NCBI GenBank assembly: GCA_003598975.1
Contig: QZIJ01000019.1
Span: 1 to 64,000 of the forward strand
DNA length: 64,000 nucleotides
DNA from: Anaerolineaceae bacterium
GTDB lineage: Bacteria; Chloroflexota; Anaerolineae; Anaerolineales; Villigracilaceae
Reading direction: 5' to 3'
The position numbers were made by a program, and so were the translations under genes. Below are positions 23,549 through 36,587 of the stretch, piece after piece. How positions within the stretch are numbered: the stretch's first letter is position 1; each line of letters begins with the position of its first letter. Under the pieces are notes generated by a model. That model saw only the letters and a program-made list of their open reading frames with translations. It was not told where the DNA came from and searched no databases.

Positions 23549-23619
23549 ACAAGTTGTAATTTTTATGATATTTATCTATATTATTGACAAGTTGCATTGG
23601 CACAGGTATACTCCCCGTT
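23549..23619 (+). promoter_or_regulatory. Candidate sigma70 promoter and two operator-like ACAAGTTG(T/C) motifs for the SufR-like regulator
   Basis: TTGACA (23584-23589), 17-bp spacer, TATACT (23607-23612); ACAAGTTGT 23549-23557 and ACAAGTTGC 23587-23595. Confidence 0.6.
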
Positions 23620-23620
23620 T

Positions 23621-24232
23621 ATGAAAAGCACGCGCGATCGAATCCTGCAAACGTTACTGCGTTCACCCCGTTCGACAATCAACGAACTGGCGGAGGCGGT
23701 GGGAATCAATCCCATCTCTGTACGCCATCATTTAACCAACCTGCAAATGGAAGGGTTGGTGGACGCGCAAGAGGAACGTCACGGAGTTGGGCGACCGCGC
23801 CTGGTATACGTTCTAACCAACGAGGGCATGGAACGCTTTCCCACCCGCTATCTTCGGCTGACGACCCGCCTGCTGGCACAGATGAAAGAATCGATGTCGG
23901 GGCCAATGGTCAGCAAACTCTTCTCCCAGGTTGCCGAGGATCTCGCGGCGGAATATGCCGAACAGGTTAAGGGATTGAGCATGGAAGAGCGGCTTGAAGT
24001 TGTCAAGGAACTACTGGCCGAAGAGGGGTTTACTGTGGAATGGGAAAAAGCCAAGGACGGCTATCGCATCCATGAGATTACCTGTCCCTACTACCAGATC
24101 GGGAAGAGCCATCCAGAAGTTTGTACTGTAGACCAGACGCTAATATCCAGAATGCTTGCGGTTCCCGTCAATAAAGTGCAATGCATACTTGATGGCAGCG
24201 CACATTGCACGTACCTGGTAAAACCAAAATAA
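23621..24232 (+). CDS. DeoR/ArsR-type HTH regulator, SufR-like, with C-terminal Cys cluster
   Basis: STINELAEAVGINPISVRHHLTNLQMEGLVDAQEERHGVGRPRLVYVLT; Cys at ITCPYYQ, EVCTVD, VQCILDGSAHCTY. Confidence 0.8.
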   Translation: MKSTRDRILQTLLRSPRSTINELAEAVGINPISVRHHLTNLQMEGLVDAQEERHGVGRPRLVYVLTNEGMERFPTRYLRLTTRLLAQMKESMSGPMVSKLFSQVAEDLAAEYAEQVKGLSMEERLEVVKELLAEEGFTVEWEKAKDGYRIHEITCPYYQIGKSHPEVCTVDQTLISRMLAVPVNKVQCILDGSAHCTYLVKPK

Positions 24233-24246
24233 CAAACGGTGATCAT

Positions 24247-24597
24247 ATGAGCGAAAATTCCGAAACAAAACAAATTCAGTGGACGATCCACACCACTCAC
24301 CCGGACAAAGTGGAGGCCGCCCGCGCCTCGCTTTCCGAGGTGATAGATCCTGAGATCGGGATGAGCATCATCCAATTGGGATTAGTGCGCGATATTCAGA
24401 TCGAAAATGAAATGGCGCGTCTAAAAATGATTCTAACCACACCATTCTGTCCGTACGGGCCCGCGATGATCGAAATGACAAAGGCGAAGGCAATCGAAGG
24501 TTTAAAAATGCCCGTCACGGTCGAGATGGGCATGGATATGTGGGATTTCTCAATGATGGAAGACCCATCTGCCCTGGATTGGGGCATGTACGCCTGA
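24247..24597 (+). CDS. MIP18/DUF59 family (Fe-S assembly related) protein
   Basis: SLSEVIDPEIGMSIIQLGLVRDIQIEN...LTTPFCPYGPAMIE. Confidence 0.85.
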   Translation: MSENSETKQIQWTIHTTHPDKVEAARASLSEVIDPEIGMSIIQLGLVRDIQIENEMARLKMILTTPFCPYGPAMIEMTKAKAIEGLKMPVTVEMGMDMWDFSMMEDPSALDWGMYA

Positions 24598-24650: not shown

Positions 24651-24855
24651 TTGATATTGGGGCAAATAACACATTATGACAACCCACTTTGTGAATGATG
24701 ACACATGTCATGCCCATTAAACGGAGTTTTGATGTATATTAGGTGAGTATTAATAACAAGACTATAATAGTACTTATTACGGAATTCGGAGGTGCCCCGC
24801 GCAAACGAACTCATTTGAAATTTGAACCCAAAACCCAAAATTGGAGAATGTGCAC

Positions 24856-27021
24856 ATGACTACCAAAAAACTTTTGATCGTGCTCGGTACTTTGCTGCTG
24901 GCGGCCACCCTCCTAGCGGCCTGCGGCGGCGAGAAAACCGAGGCGCCCGTTGTTCCCACCGAGGAACCTGCGCCTACGTTCAGCACGGATTCCATTCCGT
25001 ATTACAACGCCTGGGTCAACTCCGGCCACAACGATGTGGCTGGTGAGCCGTTCCGCCATTGGGACGGTGACGATCCTGCGGAAGTCCCTACCTCCTGCGC
25101 GCGTTGCCACAGCACCGCCGGTTACCAGGACTTCCTCGGCGCGGATGGCTCGGAAGCCAACAAGGTTGATGCGGCTGTTCCCGCCGCGGACGCCCAGGGC
25201 ATTCAATGCATGGCGTGCCACAATCCCGTTGCCAGCACGCTCGATAGCGTTGCCTTCCCCGGCTTCGAGACCGATGAGGCGGGCGAACCCGTCCCGTTCG
25301 TTGTCGAAGGCTTTGGCGACGCGACCCGCTGTCTGGTCTGCCACCAGGGACGCGAGTCCAAGGCATCAGTAGACGCGCAGATCGCCCGCTTCCAAATCAC
25401 CGATGTGGACGCTGTTGTCGCCCCGATCAAGGATGATCAGGGCAACGATGTCCGCTTCGGATTCCGCAACATCCACTACTTTGCCGCGGCTGCCACACTG
25501 TACGGCACCCAGGTCAAGGGTGGGTATGAATACGAAGGCAATATCTACGATGCTAGGCACATGCACGTGGAAGGCTACGATACCTGCATCGGCTGTCACG
25601 ACCCGCACACGCTGGAAGTGAAAGTTGAACAGTGCGCCACGTGCCACGGTGAAGGCGTCACTGCTGAAGGCGGACTGAAAGACATCCGCGAGCCCGAGGC
25701 TTCGGCCTGGGACTATGATGGTGATGGCGACGTGGAAGAAGGCATGTACTACGAGATCGAGGGCCTGCAAGCCGCGCTCCTGGCTGAGATCAAAACCTAC
25801 GCCAAGGATAAAGCCGGCACTGGCATCACCTACGATCCCGCCACATATCCCTACTTCCTCACGGACGCTGATGGTGACGGCGCGGCCGACACCAACGCAG
25901 AAGGTGGCGTGGTCGGTTACAGCACGTGGACTGCCCGCCTGCTGAAAGCCGCCTACAACTACCAGGTCTCTCTCAAGGATCCGGGTGCGTTTGCTCACGG
26001 CAACAAATACATCGTCCAGTTGCTCTACGATTCGATCAAGGATCTGGGCGGTGATGTCAGCAAGTTCGTCCGCGATGACGCGGGTCACTTTGCTGGCAAT
26101 ACCGAAGCGTTCCGCCACTGGGACGGGGATGAATACACCGTTCCCGCCGGTTGCGCCAAGTGCCATAGCGCGGGCGGTATGGCTGAGTTCATCAAAGAAG
26201 GTGCAGTGGTCTCGAAGCCTGCATCCAACGGCTTCTTGTGCTCCACCTGCCATGACGAAGCCAACTGGCCCGAACGATACGCCGTGACCACCGTTCCGTT
26301 CCCCTCCGGCGCGAGTATCACCTTCTCGAAGCCTGACGCGGACGGCAAACTGGTCCCGGACGATGCCAACCTGTGCCTCGAGTGCCACCAGGGACGCGAG
26401 TCCACCACCAGCGTCAACAGAGCGCTGGCCAACAAGGAACCCGACACCGTGGACGCGAAGATTCGCTTCTTGAACGTCCACTACTTCGCGGCGGGCGCGA
26501 CCCTGTTCGGTACGGATGCCAAAGGCGCGTACGAGTTCGAGGGCAAGACCTATCTCGGCAAGCACGGGCACATTGAAAACGGATTCACATGCAAGTCCTG
26601 CCATGATGTGCATGAACTGGAAGTGAAGACCGAAGCCTGCGCAACCTGCCACGGCACCGAAGACCTGGAAGCCATCCGCTACGGCGATCCCGTTGACTAC
26701 GATGGCGACGGCGATACAGCTGAAGGCATTGCCGGTGAAATCGCGACCCTGCAGGAAGCCCTCTACGCGACCATGCAGTCGTATGCCGAATCTCACGGCG
26801 GAGCGCTTGAATACAAAGCAGCCTCCTACCCGTACTTCTTCGGCGCGGACGGCAAGGGCTACGCGACCTGGACGCCCAACCTGATGAAAGCGGCGTACAA
26901 CTATCAGTACAGCCTGAAGGATCCGGGCGCGTTCGCTCACAACGCCAAGTACGTCATCCAGTTCCTGATCGACTCGATAGAGGCGCTGGGCGGCGACGTC
27001 ACAACCTACACGCGACCGTAA
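24856..27021 (+). CDS. Decaheme c-type cytochrome lipoprotein (two tandem pentaheme modules)
   Basis: Lipobox LLAAC; CARCH, CMACH, CLVCH, CIGCH, CATCH then CAKCH, CSTCH, CLECH, CKSCH, CATCH in two repeated units. Confidence 0.92.
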   Translation: MTTKKLLIVLGTLLLAATLLAACGGEKTEAPVVPTEEPAPTFSTDSIPYYNAWVNSGHNDVAGEPFRHWDGDDPAEVPTSCARCHSTAGYQDFLGADGSEANKVDAAVPAADAQGIQCMACHNPVASTLDSVAFPGFETDEAGEPVPFVVEGFGDATRCLVCHQGRESKASVDAQIARFQITDVDAVVAPIKDDQGNDVRFGFRNIHYFAAAATLYGTQVKGGYEYEGNIYDARHMHVEGYDTCIGCHDPHTLEVKVEQCATCHGEGVTAEGGLKDIREPEASAWDYDGDGDVEEGMYYEIEGLQAALLAEIKTYAKDKAGTGITYDPATYPYFLTDADGDGAADTNAEGGVVGYSTWTARLLKAAYNYQVSLKDPGAFAHGNKYIVQLLYDSIKDLGGDVSKFVRDDAGHFAGNTEAFRHWDGDEYTVPAGCAKCHSAGGMAEFIKEGAVVSKPASNGFLCSTCHDEANWPERYAVTTVPFPSGASITFSKPDADGKLVPDDANLCLECHQGRESTTSVNRALANKEPDTVDAKIRFLNVHYFAAGATLFGTDAKGAYEFEGKTYLGKHGHIENGFTCKSCHDVHELEVKTEACATCHGTEDLEAIRYGDPVDYDGDGDTAEGIAGEIATLQEALYATMQSYAESHGGALEYKAASYPYFFGADGKGYATWTPNLMKAAYNYQYSLKDPGAFAHNAKYVIQFLIDSIEALGGDVTTYTRP

Positions 27022-27043
27022 GCACGACTCTGCAAGAGCAAGA

Positions 27044-27076
27044 AAAAGGTAGCGGACGTAACGTCCGCTACCTTTT
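27044..27076 (+). terminator. Strong intrinsic terminator between the two cytochrome genes
   Basis: AAAAGGTAGCGGACG-TAA-CGTCCGCTACCTTTT, perfect 15-bp stem. Confidence 0.8.
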
Positions 27077-27121
27077 CGGTATATAATGAAAAAAAACGCC
27101 AAAGACCCGAGGAGATACAGA

Positions 27122-28804
27122 ATGTCCTTTAAAGATTCCGTGAGAACGTTTTTCTTCCCGCCACCCGGCTCACCGCGCTGGAAGATACTCCTGCCAACGA
27201 TCGTCATTCTGGTCATCGTATCCATCGCACTGGTTGGGGGAACCTACGGATGGGAATACAGCAACTCGCCTCAATTCTGCGGCACCACCTGCCACACCAT
27301 GCCGCCCCAAAATGCAGTCTACATCGAATCACCACATGCCAATGTCACCTGCGAGGAATGTCACATCGGGCGCACATCCTTCGTCAACCAGATCACGCGC
27401 AAATCACAGGGTCTCAAAGAACTTTACTATCAGACCTTCAATCTTTATGAGTTCCCCATCCGCGCCAAGGCTCTGCGCCCCGCGGTGGATACCTGCGAAA
27501 AATGCCATCGTCCAGAGACTTTCTCAGACGACAGCCTGCGCGTGATCTCTCATTTTGGAGATGAGATCAACAACCCCGCTACAAGCACCTATCTCGTCAT
27601 GAAAACCGGCGGCGGGACAAAACGCGAAGGCCTCGGCTTCGGTATCCACTGGCATATCGAAAATCCCGTTTACTATTATGCGACGGATGAACTCAGCCAG
27701 GAAATTCCCTACGTGCGTGTGATGAATTCGGATGGCACGTACACGGAATATGTGGATGTGGAGTCTGATTTTGACGCAAGCGCGCTGGATGAAAGCCTGC
27801 TCAAAACAATGGACTGCATTACCTGCCACAATCGCGTCACACATGACTTTCAGCCGCCCTCTGTTTCCCTGGACGAAGCGCTGGTCCGCGGACGGATCAG
27901 CACATCCATACCGGGCATCCGCGCGCGCGCCGGGGACGTGTTGAGCACAACCTATGAAACCCGCGCGGACGCGATGAAAGCCATTGATGGCATCGAAGAA
28001 TATTACAAGAACACGGAGTATTATCCCGGACACGGCGATGAAATCAAGGCCGCCGTCAATGAAATTAAAGCCATCTATGACCGAACCGTCTTCCACGATC
28101 AAAAAATAGACTGGACGACTCACCCGAACAATCTCGGCCACATCAACACAGCGGGATGTTTCCGTTGTCACGATGGCAAACACCTGAACGAAGAGGATCA
28201 AGCCGTGCGCCTGGAATGCAACCTGTGCCACGCCATTCCCGTAGTAGCCAGCGAACAGGACTTCACCGCCAGCATCGAGATCAGCCGCGGCCCCGAACCC
28301 GAATCCCACCTGAACGCCAATTGGATCAGCCTCCATAACCAGGCCTTCGACTCCACCTGCGCGAACTGTCACACCATCGAAGACGCGGGCGGGACGAGCA
28401 ACACCTCCTTCTGCTCAAACAGCGCCTGCCACGGAAGCGTCTACACCTTTGCAGGATTCGACGCTCCCAAACTCCGCGAGATTCTCAAGCCGCAGATTCC
28501 CACCCCTGCGCCTGCACCCAGCCTACCCCAGGTCCCCGACAACTTGACGTTCGAGAACTACATTGGGGCGTTGTTCAGCGCCCGTTGCACGGCGTGTCAC
28601 GGCGAGAATCCGTCCGCTGGGTTAAAACTGTCCACATACGCGGACGCCATGAAAGGCGGAGAGAGCGGAGTGGCGATCTTGCCCGGAGATAGCGCCAACA
28701 GCATCCTTGTCATGATACAAAGCGAAAAACATTTCGCCAACTTCGCCCCCGAAGAACTGGCGCTCATCATCCAGTGGATAGACGCCGGCGCGCCTGAAAA
28801 TTAA
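27122..28804 (+). CDS. Membrane-anchored multiheme cytochrome with NapC/NrfH-like N-terminus
   Basis: N-terminal TM helix, FCGTTCHTMPP...CEECHIG; CEKCH, CITCH, CFRCH, CNLCH, CANCH, CSNSACH, CTACH; GAGGAG before ATG. Confidence 0.88.
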   Translation: MSFKDSVRTFFFPPPGSPRWKILLPTIVILVIVSIALVGGTYGWEYSNSPQFCGTTCHTMPPQNAVYIESPHANVTCEECHIGRTSFVNQITRKSQGLKELYYQTFNLYEFPIRAKALRPAVDTCEKCHRPETFSDDSLRVISHFGDEINNPATSTYLVMKTGGGTKREGLGFGIHWHIENPVYYYATDELSQEIPYVRVMNSDGTYTEYVDVESDFDASALDESLLKTMDCITCHNRVTHDFQPPSVSLDEALVRGRISTSIPGIRARAGDVLSTTYETRADAMKAIDGIEEYYKNTEYYPGHGDEIKAAVNEIKAIYDRTVFHDQKIDWTTHPNNLGHINTAGCFRCHDGKHLNEEDQAVRLECNLCHAIPVVASEQDFTASIEISRGPEPESHLNANWISLHNQAFDSTCANCHTIEDAGGTSNTSFCSNSACHGSVYTFAGFDAPKLREILKPQIPTPAPAPSLPQVPDNLTFENYIGALFSARCTACHGENPSAGLKLSTYADAMKGGESGVAILPGDSANSILVMIQSEKHFANFAPEELALIIQWIDAGAPEN

Positions 28805-28821
28805 CATTTCCTGCAATAATG

Positions 28822-28856
28822 AAAACAGCGGACGAATACCGTCCGCTGTTTTTTTC
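28822..28856 (+). terminator. Rho-independent terminator
   Basis: AAAACAGCGGACG-AATAC-CGTCCGCTGTTTT followed by T-run. Confidence 0.85.
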
Positions 28857-29470
28857 TATTCCTCGGCCGCGTGCTGGTGCACCGAGAGACCGCGATCGGT
28901 CTCCGAAAAATCTGCCAGCATGATCAGCGCATTGACCACCGTGTTACCAGGGTTCCGCCAGCGATGGCGGAGTTTTGCCGCAAAGAGCAGGCTATCCCCC
29001 GGCTCCAACAGGTAGACCTTATTCTCGACCTGATATTCCAGGGTTCCGCGCAGGCAAAAAACAAACTCATGCCCGCTATGAATCATGGAATTAGGCCCGC
29101 TGCCCCCTCCATTCTCCAGCGTCAGGATGAAAGGCTCCATGCGGCCGACAAAATTCGCACCGCCCAAATCTTCCCATACCCCACGGAGAAAAGAAACTCG
29201 CGGACGCTCTGCGGCTTTCATAAAAACTGCGGGCAAACGCTCCAGCGGCTCTCCAAAAAAGGCCGTAATATCCACCCCCAATGCTTCCGAGAGTTTATAC
29301 AGGGTGCTCACAGATGGGCTGGTTTTACCGCGCTCGATCATGCTCAATGCGTTCGCCGAGAGGCCGCTTTTCGCGGCCAGGCCGCGCATTGATGTTTTGC
29401 GCTCCTCTCTCAACTCACGCAAGCGATTGCCAACGTTCACCGAAGGGGCGTCTTTTCCTGGCATCACCAT
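28856..29470 (-). CDS. XRE-family HTH regulator with C-terminal cupin
   Basis: NRLRELREERKTSMRGLAAKSGLSANALSMIERGKTSPSVSTLYKLSEAL; GHEFVFCLRGTLEYQVENKVYLLEPGDSLLF. Confidence 0.88.
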   Translation of the reverse strand: MVMPGKDAPSVNVGNRLRELREERKTSMRGLAAKSGLSANALSMIERGKTSPSVSTLYKLSEALGVDITAFFGEPLERLPAVFMKAAERPRVSFLRGVWEDLGGANFVGRMEPFILTLENGGGSGPNSMIHSGHEFVFCLRGTLEYQVENKVYLLEPGDSLLFAAKLRHRWRNPGNTVVNALIMLADFSETDRGLSVHQHAAEE

Positions 29471-29664
29471 GATTTCGGTCTCCTTAGCCCTATTATAAAG
29501 GGTGTTTGCAATTCCATGTTGAAGGGCGAAAATATTAATCCACCATAAGTTTATGTGACTTACTTCGCCAAACTTTGTGACATGTTTCACTATAATCATG
29601 TACAAGCAAATGTTACGATATGGGCGAATTTAGATATATTCGACTATACGTATAAAGGCATAAT

Positions 29665-30003
29665 ATGATAACTCCAACCTTGGCACAGGAAGTCTCTCAA
29701 CTCGAAGCCGAGTTGTGTTTCGCACTCGCGGACCCCACCCGCATCCTCATGCTCTACGCCCTCGAAGATGGTCCGCGCAACGTGACCGACTTGGGAAACG
29801 CGCTGGGAATTACCCAGCCAACAGCCTCGCGCCACCTCAAAGTCCTGCGCGACCGCGGCCTGGTCCGGCCGGAGCGAAGCGGTGTTGTCATCAACTACCA
29901 CCTCCTTGATCGGCGTATCCTGCAAGCCCTTGACTTGCTCCGCTCCGTTCTGCGCGACCGACTCATGATGCGCGCCAACTTGATGGAAGAAATCCAATCC
30001 TAA
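29665..30003 (+). CDS. ArsR-family transcriptional regulator
   Basis: FALADPTRILMLYALEDGPRNVTDLGNALGITQPTASRHLKVLRDRGLV. Confidence 0.9.
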   Translation: MITPTLAQEVSQLEAELCFALADPTRILMLYALEDGPRNVTDLGNALGITQPTASRHLKVLRDRGLVRPERSGVVINYHLLDRRILQALDLLRSVLRDRLMMRANLMEEIQS

Positions 30004-30016
30004 ACAGGAGATAGCA

Positions 30017-31444
30017 ATGGCGAAGACCCGCTCTTACTGGACCCTCGGCCTGGGTGCCGTTTTACTGGTTGTCATCATCCCCCTGGCAATTTTCTGGCCT
30101 AAATCAGCCCAGGCAAAAGATAATCCCTGGGACTCTGTGCCGCGACATGTCACCCATACCGACCACAAGGATATTGTGCAGGGCGGATTTGTCACAGGCC
30201 AGGAGGTGACTCGCGCCTGTCTGACCTGCCATCCGGATGCAAGCAAGGAGATGATGGTCACCACCCACTTTACGTGGCAGAGTGCGCCCTTTGATGTCCC
30301 CTGGCGCGAGGAGCCGGTCACCATTGGCAAGGCAAATCAAATCAATAATTTCTGCATTGGCACGCAGGGCAATGAAAAAAGATGCATGACCTGTCACGTT
30401 GGCTATGGATGGGCAGAAAGCGATTTTGATTTCAATAATCCCGAAAACGTGGATTGTCTCGCCTGCCACGCGGATACGGCAACTTATGCCAAAGGCGAGT
30501 ACGGCAATCCTGCGCTGGGGACTGACCTGCTCGCCGCGGCGCAGTCGGTGCGCGCACCGACGCGCGACAATTGCGGAAAATGCCACTTCGACGGCGGCGG
30601 CGGAAACGGCGTCAAACACGGCGATCTCGATGAGAGTCTCTACTTCCCGGCCGAAAATCTCGATGTACACATGGGCAAACTGGATTTCGTCTGCACCGAT
30701 TGCCATCGTACAGAGAACCACGTTGTCAAGGGCCGCATGGTGGCAGACAACTACACCATAGACCCCACAGAGCAGGTTGCCTGCACGGACTGTCACATCG
30801 AGACCCCGCACGAGGATGCACGCCTCAACCTGCACACCGACGCGGTGGCCTGCCAGACCTGTCACATTCCCGCCATCGCCTTGAAAGACCCAACCAAAAC
30901 CACCTGGGATTGGTCCACTGCCGGGCAGGATATTGGTGACGATCACTATACCTACCTTAAAATCAAAGGCTCATTCACCTACGAAAGAAACTACCAGCCT
31001 GAGTATCTCTGGTTCAACGGCAATCTCGAATACCGTTATCTGCTGGGCGACAAAATGGACCCCATGAAGCCAACCTACATCAACATCCCCGCAGGAAGCA
31101 TCAACGATCCAAACGCAAAGATCTTCCCCTTCAAATTGCATATTGCCAAACAACCGTACGACACGGTCAACAACTACCTGCTTCAACCGCGCACCGCAGG
31201 CGAAGACGGCTTTTGGACGAACTTTGACTGGCCTTCCGCACTTGCACTTGGCGCGCAGGATACTGGCATGGAATTCTCTGGCGAGTATGGCTTCGCTGAA
31301 ACCTGGATGTACTGGCCGACCACGCACATGGTCCAGCCCGCCGAAAACGCCCTGCAATGCGACGCCTGTCACAGCGACAACGGCCGTCTCGATTGGGAGG
31401 CCCTCGGGTATCCCGGCGATCCCATCGAATGGGGAGGGCGCTAA
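30017..31444 (+). CDS. Octaheme c-type cytochrome, tetrathionate reductase (OTR) family-like
   Basis: CLTCH, CMTCH, CLACH, CGKCH, CTDCH, CTDCH, CQTCH, CDACH; N-terminal signal anchor; layout matches OTR family. Confidence 0.82.
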   Translation: MAKTRSYWTLGLGAVLLVVIIPLAIFWPKSAQAKDNPWDSVPRHVTHTDHKDIVQGGFVTGQEVTRACLTCHPDASKEMMVTTHFTWQSAPFDVPWREEPVTIGKANQINNFCIGTQGNEKRCMTCHVGYGWAESDFDFNNPENVDCLACHADTATYAKGEYGNPALGTDLLAAAQSVRAPTRDNCGKCHFDGGGGNGVKHGDLDESLYFPAENLDVHMGKLDFVCTDCHRTENHVVKGRMVADNYTIDPTEQVACTDCHIETPHEDARLNLHTDAVACQTCHIPAIALKDPTKTTWDWSTAGQDIGDDHYTYLKIKGSFTYERNYQPEYLWFNGNLEYRYLLGDKMDPMKPTYINIPAGSINDPNAKIFPFKLHIAKQPYDTVNNYLLQPRTAGEDGFWTNFDWPSALALGAQDTGMEFSGEYGFAETWMYWPTTHMVQPAENALQCDACHSDNGRLDWEALGYPGDPIEWGGR

Positions 31445-31479
31445 CGTATTTCGGAATACGTACCGCGTAAGGAAAAAAC

Positions 31480-34185
31480 ATGAAGACTTCCATCAAATTT
31501 CTCCTGCTTGGAACAATAACGCTTACCCTCGCGTTCGGAATTGGTGCGGTACTCGCTCGAAGTAATAACTTGCCCGCGGCCGTTGCGTCACCGATTCATC
31601 CGACGTTCGCACTGCTGGACGCGGATGGCATCCATGTGCTCGAAAGCCAGAAACCCATCTCGACCATGCAGACCTGCGGACAATGCCACGACACCGAGTT
31701 CATCGTCTCGCACTCGTACCACTCCGACCTCGGACTGAGCGATTACAAGGAAGGCTCCGATTCGTGGGACGCGTCAAATGGCCTGTTCGGAAAATTCGAC
31801 CCCATCACCAACCGCTATCTCTCGCAGAAAGATGATTCGCGTCTCGACCTGACCACGCCCGATTGGTTGATGAACTTCGGGTGGCGCGTCCCCGGGGGCG
31901 GACCCGCGGTCTATAGTCGCAGTGGACAGCCCCTCATGAGTCTGAAGCCAGACGCGAAGAATCCCGAAGCGAGCACGTACGATCCCGAGTCGGGAAAATT
32001 CAAAGCGTGGGACTGGTCCAAGTCGGGCGACATCGAAATGAACTGCTTCCTGTGCCACACCGCCAATCCCAACAATAAAGTCCGTACCGAGATCATCGCA
32101 AAGGGTGAATTTGGCTGGGCGAACACTGCCACACTGCTTGGATCGGGCGTTGTCCTGCGCACCACAACCGAATGGGTTTACAACGATAAGGCGTTTGCTC
32201 CCAACGGCGAACTGCTTCCCGAGTATGCTCAACTGCAGGAACCGACCAACGAAAACTGCGCGGCATGCCACGGCGAGATTCACGAAGACCCGACCACACC
32301 GCTGACGCTGGACGCTTGCGACCCAACCCAAACCCAGACCGCCACAACGGGACAGGTTGTCTCCTCGCAAAAAATTTCCGAGTCGGGGCTGAATCTGAGC
32401 GACAAAGCCAGCCTGACTTACGCGTGGGACATCCACGCCGAGCGCGCGCTGAAATGCACGGACTGCCATTACTCGCTCAACAACCCCGCGCACACACAGG
32501 ACAAGAAAGCCGCCAACCCCGATCACCTCACTTACGACCCGCGCAAACTCGAAATCGGCGAATATCTCGAAAAACCAAATCACAATTTTGCGCGCGGCGC
32601 CAGCGCGCAGTTCACTATCGCTCCCGAACTGAAAGGCACAATGCGGCGTTGCGAATCGTGCCATGATGAAGAAGCCGCGCACGCCAACTGGCTCCCCTAC
32701 ACTGACCGCCACATGCAGGTGGTGGCGTGCGAATCCTGCCACATTCCGAAGATGGCCGCACCCGCCTATCAAACCGTGGACTGGACTGCCATCAGACTTG
32801 ATGGCGCGGGAAACACAACCTGCCGCGGCATCAATGGCACGAGCACCATCACGAACCTTGTCACTGGCTACCAACCCGTGCTGATGCAACGCACCAACGT
32901 GGACGGAAACACGCTCATCGCTCCCTACAACCTCGTGACCTCCTTCTTCTGGACCTACGAGGACGAAAACGGCGCGGCGCGCCCGGTTCGCCAGGCGGAC
33001 CTCGAGGCGGCCTACCTCGCCGACGGCGACTACGCGGCTGACGTTCTCTCCACCTTCGACGCGGACGCGGACGGTCAACTCTCCGACGCGGAACTCGTCC
33101 TCGACAGCGAATCCAAACAGGCGCTGATCGCGGGCAAGCTCGAATCGCTTGGATTGAAAAACGTCCACATCTACGGACAGATCCAGCCCTACTCCATCAA
33201 CCACAATGTGGTCAGCGGCAAATACGCGGTCAGCGAATGTAACGCCTGCCACGATGAAGATTCCCGTGTCACTGCTCCGCTCACACTGGCAGACAACAGC
33301 CCGCTGGGCGTCACGCCCGTATTCGTGGAAGACTCGAACGTCTCCTTCAGCGGGAGCATCGAAAACATGGATGGCGCGCTGGTTTATCAACCAGTCAACA
33401 GGAACGACGGTACCTACGTCTTCGGCCACGATCGCATCTCGTGGATTGACTGGTTCGGTGCGCTGGCCTTCATCGGCACAATACTCGGCGTCGGCGGACA
33501 TTCCACACTGCGTTATCTCGCCGCACGCAAACGCGGCAGGCCAGAGATTGCAATCAAGCCCGTTTATATGTACGAAGCCTATGAGCGCTTCTGGCACTGG
33601 CTACAGACCATCGTCATCATCATTCTCCTGCTGACGGGTCTCGTCATTCATCGCCCAGACCTGTTTGGCGCTTTCTCGTTCCGCTACATGGTAACCATCC
33701 ACAACACACTGGCCGCCCTGCTTGCGCTCAACTCGCTTTTCTCGCTGTTCTGGCATTTCGTCAGTGGTGAAATCCAGCAATACATTCCCCACCCCTACGG
33801 CTTCATTGACCAGGCCATCGCGCAGGCAAAGTATTACATGCAGGGCGTCTTCAAACATGAGCCGCACCCGTTCAATAAAACAAAGGATCGCAAGTTCAAC
33901 CCACTCCAGAAAATCACCTACCTGGGCTTGCTCGGCGTACTGTTCCCCCTGCAGGGAATCACTGGAGTCTTGATGTGGGCGGTTCAAAGAATCCCATCCA
34001 TTTCCACTTTCCTCGGCGGACTGCCCGTTCTCGCCCCCATCCATACCCTGCTGGCGTGGTTGTTCGCAACCTTCATCGTCGCCCACGTGTACTTGACCAC
34101 CATAGCGGGCCCGAAACCTCTCGACGCCATCCAAGCCATGGTGACAGGCTGGGAAGATATGGAAGTTCACGAGAACAGCAATTAG
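31480..34185 (+). CDS. Heptaheme c-type cytochrome fused to an EF-hand-like motif and a C-terminal cytochrome b561-like membrane domain
   Basis: CGQCH, CFLCH, CAACH, CTDCH, CESCH, CESCH, CNACH; DADADGQLSDAE; YERFWHWLQTIVIIILLLTG...HNTLAALLALNSLFSLFWHF...HTLLAWLFATFIVAHVYLTT. Confidence 0.85.
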   Translation: MKTSIKFLLLGTITLTLAFGIGAVLARSNNLPAAVASPIHPTFALLDADGIHVLESQKPISTMQTCGQCHDTEFIVSHSYHSDLGLSDYKEGSDSWDASNGLFGKFDPITNRYLSQKDDSRLDLTTPDWLMNFGWRVPGGGPAVYSRSGQPLMSLKPDAKNPEASTYDPESGKFKAWDWSKSGDIEMNCFLCHTANPNNKVRTEIIAKGEFGWANTATLLGSGVVLRTTTEWVYNDKAFAPNGELLPEYAQLQEPTNENCAACHGEIHEDPTTPLTLDACDPTQTQTATTGQVVSSQKISESGLNLSDKASLTYAWDIHAERALKCTDCHYSLNNPAHTQDKKAANPDHLTYDPRKLEIGEYLEKPNHNFARGASAQFTIAPELKGTMRRCESCHDEEAAHANWLPYTDRHMQVVACESCHIPKMAAPAYQTVDWTAIRLDGAGNTTCRGINGTSTITNLVTGYQPVLMQRTNVDGNTLIAPYNLVTSFFWTYEDENGAARPVRQADLEAAYLADGDYAADVLSTFDADADGQLSDAELVLDSESKQALIAGKLESLGLKNVHIYGQIQPYSINHNVVSGKYAVSECNACHDEDSRVTAPLTLADNSPLGVTPVFVEDSNVSFSGSIENMDGALVYQPVNRNDGTYVFGHDRISWIDWFGALAFIGTILGVGGHSTLRYLAARKRGRPEIAIKPVYMYEAYERFWHWLQTIVIIILLLTGLVIHRPDLFGAFSFRYMVTIHNTLAALLALNSLFSLFWHFVSGEIQQYIPHPYGFIDQAIAQAKYYMQGVFKHEPHPFNKTKDRKFNPLQKITYLGLLGVLFPLQGITGVLMWAVQRIPSISTFLGGLPVLAPIHTLLAWLFATFIVAHVYLTTIAGPKPLDAIQAMVTGWEDMEVHENSN

Positions 34186-34249
34186 TGAGCAGTTATTGGT
34201 AACTGGCAGTAAATGGTAATGCCAGTTACCAATTACACAAGGAGTTTCA

Positions 34250-34786
34250 ATGGCAACCAAATCCCTCTTCAACCGCACGCCCAAACCATACGTACATCCA
34301 TACTTTGGCGGAATGGTTCTGGGAATTATCCTCTTCCTTGCCCTGCTCTTGACGGGCAACGGACTCGGCTCATCGGGCGCGACAAGCCGCATCGTGACCG
34401 CAGCCACCGACCTGGTCGCGCCCGAACACGTGGACACGACTCCCTACCTGCTGAAACTTGCGGGCGGCGACAAAAATCCCTTCGACGATTGGATCGTCCC
34501 CGTCTTCTTTGGCGCATTGATCGGCGGATTTTCCTCGGGCATGATCTTCGGACGCGTCAAAGTCGAGACGACGAAGGGTCCCAGCATCTCGAACCGCACG
34601 CGCTGGCTGGTCTCATTCCTGGGCGGCGTCATCTTCCTCTACGGCGCGCGCATGGCTCGTGGATGCACCTCAGGCCAGGCGCTCACAGGCGGCACGACGC
34701 TCGCGGCAGGTTCGTGGGTCGTCATGTTCGCCATCTTCGGCGGCGCGTATGCGCTGGCGTATTTTGTAAGGAAGTTGTGGAACTAG
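34250..34786 (+). CDS. YeeE/YedE-family sulfur-compound transporter subunit
   Basis: GGVIFLYGARMARGCTSGQALTGGTTLAAGSWVVM. Confidence 0.85.
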   Translation: MATKSLFNRTPKPYVHPYFGGMVLGIILFLALLLTGNGLGSSGATSRIVTAATDLVAPEHVDTTPYLLKLAGGDKNPFDDWIVPVFFGALIGGFSSGMIFGRVKVETTKGPSISNRTRWLVSFLGGVIFLYGARMARGCTSGQALTGGTTLAAGSWVVMFAIFGGAYALAYFVRKLWN

Positions 34787-34795
34787 GAGTCTCCC

Positions 34796-36070
34796 ATGCA
34801 ATTCCCTCTCACCGCCTTCAACAATGTCAGCGCGGCCAACCCGTGGACATATATTATCTTCGGCTTGATTGGTTTCGGCTTCGGCTTCACGCTCGAAATG
34901 TCGGGCTTTGGCAACTCGCGCAAACTGGCCGCGCAATTCTACTTCACCGAAATGACCGTGCTCAAGGTCATGTTCACGGCCATCGTCACTGCCATGGTTT
35001 TGCTCTTCGGCGCGGTCAGCCTCGGCATTCTCAACTTCAATCTCGTGTGGGTCAACGAGACCTACCTTGCCTCGGGCATTCTCGGCGGCCTCATCATGGG
35101 CGTCGGCTTCATCGTCGGCGGGTTCTGTCCCACCACATCGCTGGCCTCCGCCTCCACGGGCAAAATTGACGGGATGCTCTTCATGCTCGGCGGCTTCGTC
35201 GGCGCATTTCTCTTCGGCGAGACCGAAAAATATTTTGATTACTGGTACACCCATGCGGGTTACTTCGGACGCGTCACACTCGATGAGGTCTTCGGCATCC
35301 CCGTTGGCGCTGTCGTCATGCTTGTCGTCCTCATGGCGTTGTTCATGTTCTGGGGAGCGGAACAACTGGAGCGGATCGTCGGCAAAAAGGATATGTCACA
35401 CGAACCGAAACTCCGCCTCGTTGGCGCTGGACTTTTGGCGGCCGCGGCCATCGGAATCGTCCTCATCGGGACGCCTTCCACCGAGGCCAAGTATGACCGC
35501 CTGTCCTTCAATCGCACCGTCGAGGGTCAGCAGGTGGTTTTCACTGCCGACGAAATGCTCTCCACCCGACAGGCCTACATCCACCCTGGCGAATTGCTTG
35601 CCACCATGGCCGATGACCGTCTGATCGCCTCCATTATTGATGTTCGCCCCGAAGCGGACTACAACCTCTTCCACATCGTCAACTCGGTCAACATTCCCGC
35701 GGCCGACATCAAAAGCGTCGTCCCCTCCCTACTCGCAGACCAGACGCCGAACAAAGTCTACGTGGTGGTCAGCAACGACGAAACCGCCGCCACCCAAGCC
35801 TGGAAAATTCTGGTGGCCGAGGCGGTGCCGAATGTATACATCCTCGAAGGCGGCGTCAACCACTGGATCACGGTCTTCGGACAGGATGAGGACGGAATCG
35901 CCCCCCTGACCAGCAACGTGGATGAATTCCTGCGCTTCGCCTTCCCTTCCGCACTGGGCAACCGATATCAATGCGCCAACCCAAGCCCGTTGATGGAATG
36001 GGAAATCGAATTCGATCCCATGATCCAATTGCAATTGAAACGCGACAAATCTGGCGGCGGCTGCGGTTAG
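34796..36070 (+). CDS. YeeE/YedE-family transporter fused to a C-terminal rhodanese-like domain
   Basis: GFGFGFTLEMSGFGNSRKLAAQFY, VGGFCPTTSLASASTGKIDG; ASIIDVRPEADYNLFHIVNSVNIPAAD...VYILEGGVNHW; ends SGGGCG. Confidence 0.85.
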   Translation: MQFPLTAFNNVSAANPWTYIIFGLIGFGFGFTLEMSGFGNSRKLAAQFYFTEMTVLKVMFTAIVTAMVLLFGAVSLGILNFNLVWVNETYLASGILGGLIMGVGFIVGGFCPTTSLASASTGKIDGMLFMLGGFVGAFLFGETEKYFDYWYTHAGYFGRVTLDEVFGIPVGAVVMLVVLMALFMFWGAEQLERIVGKKDMSHEPKLRLVGAGLLAAAAIGIVLIGTPSTEAKYDRLSFNRTVEGQQVVFTADEMLSTRQAYIHPGELLATMADDRLIASIIDVRPEADYNLFHIVNSVNIPAADIKSVVPSLLADQTPNKVYVVVSNDETAATQAWKILVAEAVPNVYILEGGVNHWITVFGQDEDGIAPLTSNVDEFLRFAFPSALGNRYQCANPSPLMEWEIEFDPMIQLQLKRDKSGGGCG

Positions 36071-36218
36071 CAGATTTGGATTTCGTCACCATCAAGCACC
36101 ATTCAACAAGGCTCCAAGCTATATACGCGGAGCCTTGTGAGTTTAATGCAAAATGGCGAAATCAAATTGGACAGAACAGGGCTATAATAAATCAACTAAC
36201 CACAAAAAGGAGATTGCG

Positions 36219-36587
36219 ATGAAATCGGACGGAAAATTCAAGATCAAGGGCAAGAATGTACCCGGCTACGATTCGGAAATCGAAGTGGACATTGGCAGTG
36301 AGAACGCCAAGAAGTACGAGGTGGTCAGCAAGGAAATTCCCGCGCCTTCCTCGTACGAAGGCGGAACGATCACCTGGTTCAACGCATATGGCGTAAAGGA
36401 AAAATCAACAGGAAAATACGCAGACATCTCCTATACCGTCACATTGAGCGCCCTGCCCAAGGGAAAAACAAAACTCTTCGCACTGATCAACAACATCCCG
36501 CAGAAGTTGGATTTCAAGGTGGGCGGAAGCGGAAAGATCAAGTTCACACTGACTGTGGGCGATCCGCCTGTCGGCATCTGGCCGTAG
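36219..36587 (+). CDS. Hypothetical protein
   Basis: Open frame after AAAGGAG-like RBS; 122 aa; no recognised family. Confidence 0.6.
   Translation: MKSDGKFKIKGKNVPGYDSEIEVDIGSENAKKYEVVSKEIPAPSSYEGGTITWFNAYGVKEKSTGKYADISYTVTLSALPKGKTKLFALINNIPQKLDFKVGGSGKIKFTLTVGDPPVGIWP

Follow-up and report, generated by a model that had tools for sequence, protein, structure and literature searches.

The window analyzed here, 64,000 nucleotides in length, comprises positions 1–64,000 of contig QZIJ01000019.1 of an Anaerolineaceae bacterium (GCA_003598975.1), whose genome of 3.9 Mb is 84% complete and whose relatives are Anaerolineae. At 29665–36067, on one strand, it holds a conserved operon that encodes, in this order, an ArsR-family regulator, a member of the octaheme tetrathionate reductase (OTR) family, a heptaheme cytochrome fused to cytochrome b561 (hereafter the fusion), a YeeE/YedE half-transporter, and a second YeeE half fused to a rhodanese-like domain (YeeE–rhodanese). 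A preliminary description had treated an 11-kb span including this operon as one candidate respiratory or sulfur redox system. Every feature that it listed was recovered in place, including cytochromes with 10, 7 (plus two atypical), 8, and 7 heme motifs, and family searches confirmed the b561 domain, the two YeeE/YedE halves, the rhodanese-like domain, and the XRE-cupin and ArsR regulators. What stands of its proposal is a real operon that joins OTR and YeeE uptake to a quinone interface; the results do not support membership of the decaheme and NapC-type cytochromes or a working rhodanese.

The four genes for OTR, the fusion, YeeE, and YeeE–rhodanese form a quartet with all-or-none presence. 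In a set of named loci (the best 80 of 323 relatives, from 84,980 species genomes; 77 Chloroflexota and three labeled Proteobacteria), the quartet is complete in 80/80 as far as the contigs reach, with all genes on the same strand and at short spacing (median 32–68 bases). In a second set of 61 order-level relatives, which overlaps the named loci so that the counts are not additive, all 34 relatives with a full-length YeeE–rhodanese gene also have an OTR, and the sole OTR genome without this gene (G026) is interrupted at that point by runs of N and the end of the contig. Of 400 Chloroflexota genomes drawn evenly, 16 have an OTR over cut-off, each with the fusion's weak OTR match ~1 kb away; across the analysis, some weak matches carry marginal E-values. 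OTR, the fusion, and YeeE–rhodanese also diverge in step (Spearman 0.79–0.85). The conservation of neighbors that the preliminary description had looked to is thus found for these four genes, and the cluster is not a product of chance, given an OTR that matches 1SP3 at 450 bits and a quartet kept across many genera. The closest named locus is in a groundwater Chloroflexi metagenome-assembled genome (MAG), where the fusion protein is 77% identical. A genome of the same genus without OTR (G002) retains decayed remnants of the fusion gene and of the two YeeE genes, in which the tail of YeeE–rhodanese can still be read (L178, G002:C18:24000-32000). A search of plasmids yielded OTR homologs in Paracoccus and Photobacterium and no full YeeE–rhodanese protein. 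In the open-licence literature on TsoR, on YeeE with octaheme and rhodanese, and on YeeE with a swinging arm, we found no description of a unit combining an octaheme, a heptaheme–b561 protein, and YeeE–rhodanese.

The proposed catalytic subunit is OTR, encoded at 30017–31444 (+) with eight CXXCH motifs (30017–31441). The preliminary description had called this octaheme OTR-like, which is borne out by a score of 565 bits against TIGR04315 (cut-off 375) and by a match to 1SP3 over its length. K200 aligns with the heme-ligand K153 of 1SP3 and is conserved, predicting lysine ligation in this OTR as well. The non-heme cysteine C113 aligns with C64 in the putative active site of 1SP3, and the NNFC motif that contains this conserved extra cysteine is present in 73/73 relatives. 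The position of D150 in 1SP3 is Asn in the window OTR and in 70/72 relatives, Asp at this position not being a published defining feature. Because OTR of Shewanella acts in vitro on nitrite and hydroxylamine, according to work cited in PMC11024163, OTR of the operon might instead reduce nitrite, hydroxylamine, or NO, with YeeE merely co-located. We consider such nitrogen chemistry very improbable, since YeeE and YeeE–rhodanese are all-or-none with OTR across phyla and SoxY is present in all three proteobacterial hosts.

The fusion, at 31480–34185 (+), has seven CXXCH motifs (31480–34182) and matches cytochrome b561 (PF01292) at residues 698–890 (4e-25), as the preliminary description had proposed. 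That description missed the relationship of its ectodomain, which matches both the methanogen cytochrome MmcA (TIGR04314, 2e-11) and OTR (1.6e-9); against TIGR04314 the fusion scores 43 bits (67 bits in locus L165), under the cut-off of 250. Hhalign of the fusion with OTR (probability 97.1, E 6e-11) aligns four successive heme motifs and leaves the Gly-rich lysine loop of OTR (the GGGG-VK stretch) gapped in the fusion. Foldseek of the fusion model against the Protein Data Bank returned only b561/FdnI-type subunits and no OTR, and the kinship with OTR rests for this reason on hidden Markov models and hhalign. In the model, the b561 domain takes the form of a b subunit of the hydrogenase/FdnI type; its best score is against PhsC, the cytochrome b of thiosulfate reductase, and all its NCBIfam scores are under cut-off. 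To judge by its sequence, the fusion resembles MmcA in being a non-catalytic protein of OTR kinship that has neither the catalytic heme nor the lysine. MmcA itself is described as related to OTR, devoid of the catalytic heme, and active as an electron conduit (PMC11024163); we therefore read the fusion as a probable wire joining quinone and OTR, running in one direction or the other. In a 369-genome class sample around Parasulfuritortus, a full fusion was found only in the query genome. Three genomes of this class (G586:C8, G585:C1, and G516:C292) have frames of 991–1587 amino acids with weak matches to the N-terminal heme domain, which are possibly distant heptaheme fusions.

Both YeeE halves match Sulf_transp (PF04143; 71 and 55 bits). 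In an alignment with StYeeE (6LEO), C139 of the first half (34250–34786, +) corresponds to C293, the first StYeeE cysteine, and C111 of YeeE–rhodanese (34796–36070, +; PF04143, PF00581) corresponds to C91, so that cysteines 1 and 2 are kept; C139 is invariant. The position of C22, the third and cytoplasmic cysteine, is G39 here and G, N, or A in 51 sequences, and the score against the NCBIfam TsuA equivalog is 31 bits (cut-off 400). YeeE–rhodanese has six helices, and the positive-inside rule predicts that its C-terminal domain lies outside the cytoplasmic membrane. This domain matches PF00581 (56 bits) and adopts the rhodanese fold in an AF2 model (Foldseek probability 1.00). The cysteine of the catalytic loop is replaced, with SNDE in the window, S/G-N-D/G/N-E in 51/51 sequences, and N327 and E329 invariant; with the catalytic cysteine lost in every member, the domain is not supported as a working sulfurtransferase.

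The feature that the preliminary description overlooked is the tail. YeeE–rhodanese ends in SGGGCG, and the last four residues, Gly421-Gly422-Cys423-Gly424 (codons at 36056–36067, +), are invariant in the 51 sequences, GGCG being found at the C-terminus of 67/67 complete named copies. The tail is disordered or of low confidence in the AF2 model (pLDDT ~31). The 80 loci contain 11,102 closed open reading frames of at least 60 codons; a GGCG or GGCGG terminus occurs in only 68 of them, namely the 67 YeeE–rhodanese copies and one SoxY. In SoxY the cysteine of the terminal GGCGG carries sulfur substrates (PMC6067878); YeeE–rhodanese has no match to the SoxY domain (PF13501). By this resemblance we propose the tail as a sulfur-carrying arm. 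The tail could also be a docking or redox-switch peptide, for example one that forms a disulfide with C113 of OTR or gates the YeeE pore; in that case free tetrathionate would be the substrate of OTR, and the thiosulfate would enter through YeeE. The conserved non-heme cysteine in the putative active site of OTR is in line with this idea, as is the fact that the tail protein is itself a transporter half, but an exact Gly-Gly-Cys-Gly end on an unstructured arm, elsewhere in the loci found only in SoxY, fits carriage better, and we judge docking or switching improbable.

Altogether, these features lead us to suggest that the products of the operon carry out sulfur redox chemistry outside the cytoplasm in exchange with the quinone pool, and that a carrier arm offers the sulfur to OTR, a reading that we hold to be as probable as its opposite. 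In this model, the b561 domain and the non-catalytic heptaheme domain fused to it would relay electrons between menaquinol and OTR, whose substrate would not, or not only, be free; rather, the cysteine of the C-terminal GGCG would be loaded with a group derived from thiosulfate or polythionate, e.g., Cys-S-S-SO3-, and OTR would make or break the S–S bond of the carrier at the Lys-ligated heme. The two YeeE halves would move the released thiosulfate-like product, while ArsR, with its one conserved cysteine, and the XRE-cupin protein might sense sulfur species. Somewhat more tentatively, and with a little less than an even chance of being correct, we propose that YeeE–rhodanese is a carrier tethered to a transporter and built on a dead rhodanese, with an independently arisen SoxY-like arm, and that it shuttles bound sulfur between the OTR site and the YeeE pore. 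The natural substrate of OTR would then be a protein-bound sulfur adduct and not a free oxyanion, and the system as a whole a form of sulfur respiration not previously described.

The three proteobacterial loci, from Parasulfuritortus cantonensis LSR1, a Gallionellaceae MAG, and a Lysobacterales MAG with soxYZ-soxB close by, bear on the direction of the reaction. A FastTree phylogeny of the three concatenated proteins groups them in a single clade (support 1.0) nested within Chloroflexota, from which it follows that the whole module was transferred in a single event, its ArsR being left behind. SoxY is present in 3/3 of these hosts, and in one locus (L159) soxY, soxZ, and soxB (SoxB, 863 bits) lie 3–8 kb upstream of the module on the same strand. 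The proteobacterial labels of the MAGs could be binning errors; the Parasulfuritortus genome is from an isolate, and the sox linkage in L159 is on one contig. SoxY and the sox neighborhood favor thiosulfate use in these hosts. They also invite a Sox-like oxidation, in which OTR oxidizes thiosulfate or sulfane sulfur on the GGCG arm, as SoxAX or SoxCD does on SoxY, and passes electrons via the fusion to quinone. Acquisition of the whole module by sox-bearing Proteobacteria, with one copy beside soxYZ-soxB, and the soxY-otr neighbors of lucinid symbionts, where a divergent soxY stands beside otr (PMC11237559), would be explained in this way. Nevertheless, the Chloroflexota hosts are without SoxY, and a Sox context is ruled out there by its absence from module-bearing relatives; ~8/35 OTR-bearing relatives are without a clear heme-copper oxidase, other acceptors being possible; on general grounds, making a disulfide from thiosulfate is energetically unfavorable with menaquinone; and known OTR activity is reductive (PMC11024163). 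We consider oxidation unlikely on balance, though the most probable of the alternatives.

For the carrier model in Chloroflexota, we favor the reductive direction, since couples of the thiosulfate/tetrathionate type have higher potentials than menaquinone. The soxY-otr neighbors of lucinid symbionts are an independent precedent for the carrier model, and SoxY in all three proteobacterial hosts, the sox genes of L159, and the best score of the b561 domain being against PhsC also speak for it. Several observations weigh against the carrier model. The carrier chemistry of the tail is suggested by resemblance to SoxY, and the scaffold is unrelated to that protein. The operon has no SoxZ-like partner. 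SoxY was not found in the window's genome, and the single relative among the 61 that has it is without a full OTR. The YeeE pair is without the third StYeeE cysteine and the operon without TusA or YeeD, and the transport step would therefore differ from that of known YeeE. Possession of a heme-copper oxidase is not correlated with the module and gives no direction, and Shewanella OTR also acts in vitro on nitrite and hydroxylamine (cited in PMC11024163).

Upstream of the operon lie two further multiheme genes. The first (24841–27021, +) encodes a lipoprotein (lipobox Cys23) with 10 CXXCH motifs in 24856–27018, and the second (27086–28804, +) a NapC/NrfH-type cytochrome with a PSCyt1 domain (PF03264, PF07635), in which 27086–28801 contains seven CXXCH motifs, one CX3CH (C65), and one CX4CH (C443); T-M comes after the first atypical motif, a trait shared with NrfH. 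Directly 3' of the NapC-type gene, between the upstream cytochromes and the conserved operon, is a terminator-like hairpin (28821–28853, +) of 14 pairs followed by a T tract, which divides the 11-kb span into two or more transcription units; the span is not one system. The four multiheme genes within 11 kb might be taken for one chain that delivers electrons to external acceptors. We regard such extracellular electron transfer as extremely improbable: a relative of the decaheme gene is near the module in 2/80 named loci and matches to the NapC-type gene in 3/80, two of them weak, and both genes belong to a separate transcription unit. They were added locally next to a conserved unit of another kind, and synteny rules out their membership in the module that the preliminary description had assigned to them. 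In one other locus a decaheme gene related to that of the window is upstream of the module (L144:5395-7863). Just 3' of the operon, 36216–36587 encodes a 123-residue protein without a Pfam match, for which G004, a close relative, has the only related protein (L043, L155).

The first operon gene (29665–30003, +) encodes the ArsR-family regulator (NF033788, 76 bits), found in 66/80 named loci, whose single conserved cysteine, C18, is present in 67/67 sequences. Divergent from it is the XRE-cupin regulator (28856–29605, −; HTH_3, Cupin_2), which adjoins the operon in ~33/80 named loci; between the two divergent genes we found no inverted repeats as an operator. The same genome encodes a second OTR, which bears a fused extension of seven hemes for a total of 15 and is followed by ferredoxin-like and NrfD-like subunits (L039:10425-15400, G000:C147); this OTR retains Asp at the position of D150 in 1SP3. 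This second system is also flanked by XRE-cupin and ArsR genes, its ArsR having a cysteine at a similar place to C18, which suggests that these regulators follow the substrate of OTR and not the YeeE genes. In two relatives the module adjoins a second OTR system, in L040 (G042:C41), where a 15-heme OTR is divergent from it, and in L041 (G029:C42), and two relatives that carry the module also have ten-heme divergent OTR relatives (L070 and L071, 227–231 bits). Further upstream, at 23597–24597 (+), the window encodes a SufR-like regulator (TIGR02702, 95 bits) and a SufT-like (MIP18/PaaD) protein (TIGR02945, 49.5 bits), both under cut-off; SufR and SufT are upstream neighbors in 29/80 named loci. 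On plasmid pFER4 of Paracoccus ferrooxidans (L200), the OTR gene is directly 3' of the suf operon for Fe-S assembly. With SufR/SufT beside the module in many Chloroflexota, this makes a tie of OTR to Fe-S repair possible.

If OTR acts on carrier-bound sulfur, many Anaerolineae of groundwater, wastewater, and lakes would have to be assigned a different sulfur role, and a second scaffold would be known for a SoxY-type sulfur arm. As a cultured host, P. cantonensis makes the carrier idea testable.

Placing the system beside known ones, its OTR shares with SO4144 (1SP3) the eight hemes, the position of the lysine ligand, the active-site cysteine, and the C-terminal PF11783, whereas the window type is always paired with the fusion and the YeeE/carrier pair and mostly has Asn for D150. 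Similarly to MmcA of Methanosarcina, the fusion is an OTR-related heptaheme protein without the catalytic heme, but it is bacterial, fused to cytochrome b561, and well under the TIGR04314 cut-off. Its b561 domain resembles the four-helix, quinone-linked b subunits of the PhsC/FdnI/HyaC type yet sits behind a heptaheme c domain and scores under the NCBIfam cut-offs. The transporter halves belong to the Pfam family of YeeE/TsuA (6LEO, 8K1R) and have cysteines 1 and 2, while differing in the split over two genes, the missing third cysteine, the absence of YeeD/TusA, and the fused external domain. That domain has the fold of rhodanese and, in all module members, has lost its catalytic cysteine. 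The Gly-Gly-Cys-Gly arm at the C-terminus, outside the cytoplasmic membrane, is that of SoxY (PF13501, TIGR04488); here, however, it is borne by a rhodanese-like scaffold tethered to a YeeE half, without SoxZ in the operon, and nearly always ends in GGCG rather than GGCGG. Finally, in the otr-soxY-S3-soxZ arrangement of lucinid symbionts (PMC11237559), OTR likewise adjoins a SoxY-type arm protein, which is there a separate, true SoxY, with no YeeE–rhodanese carrier reported.

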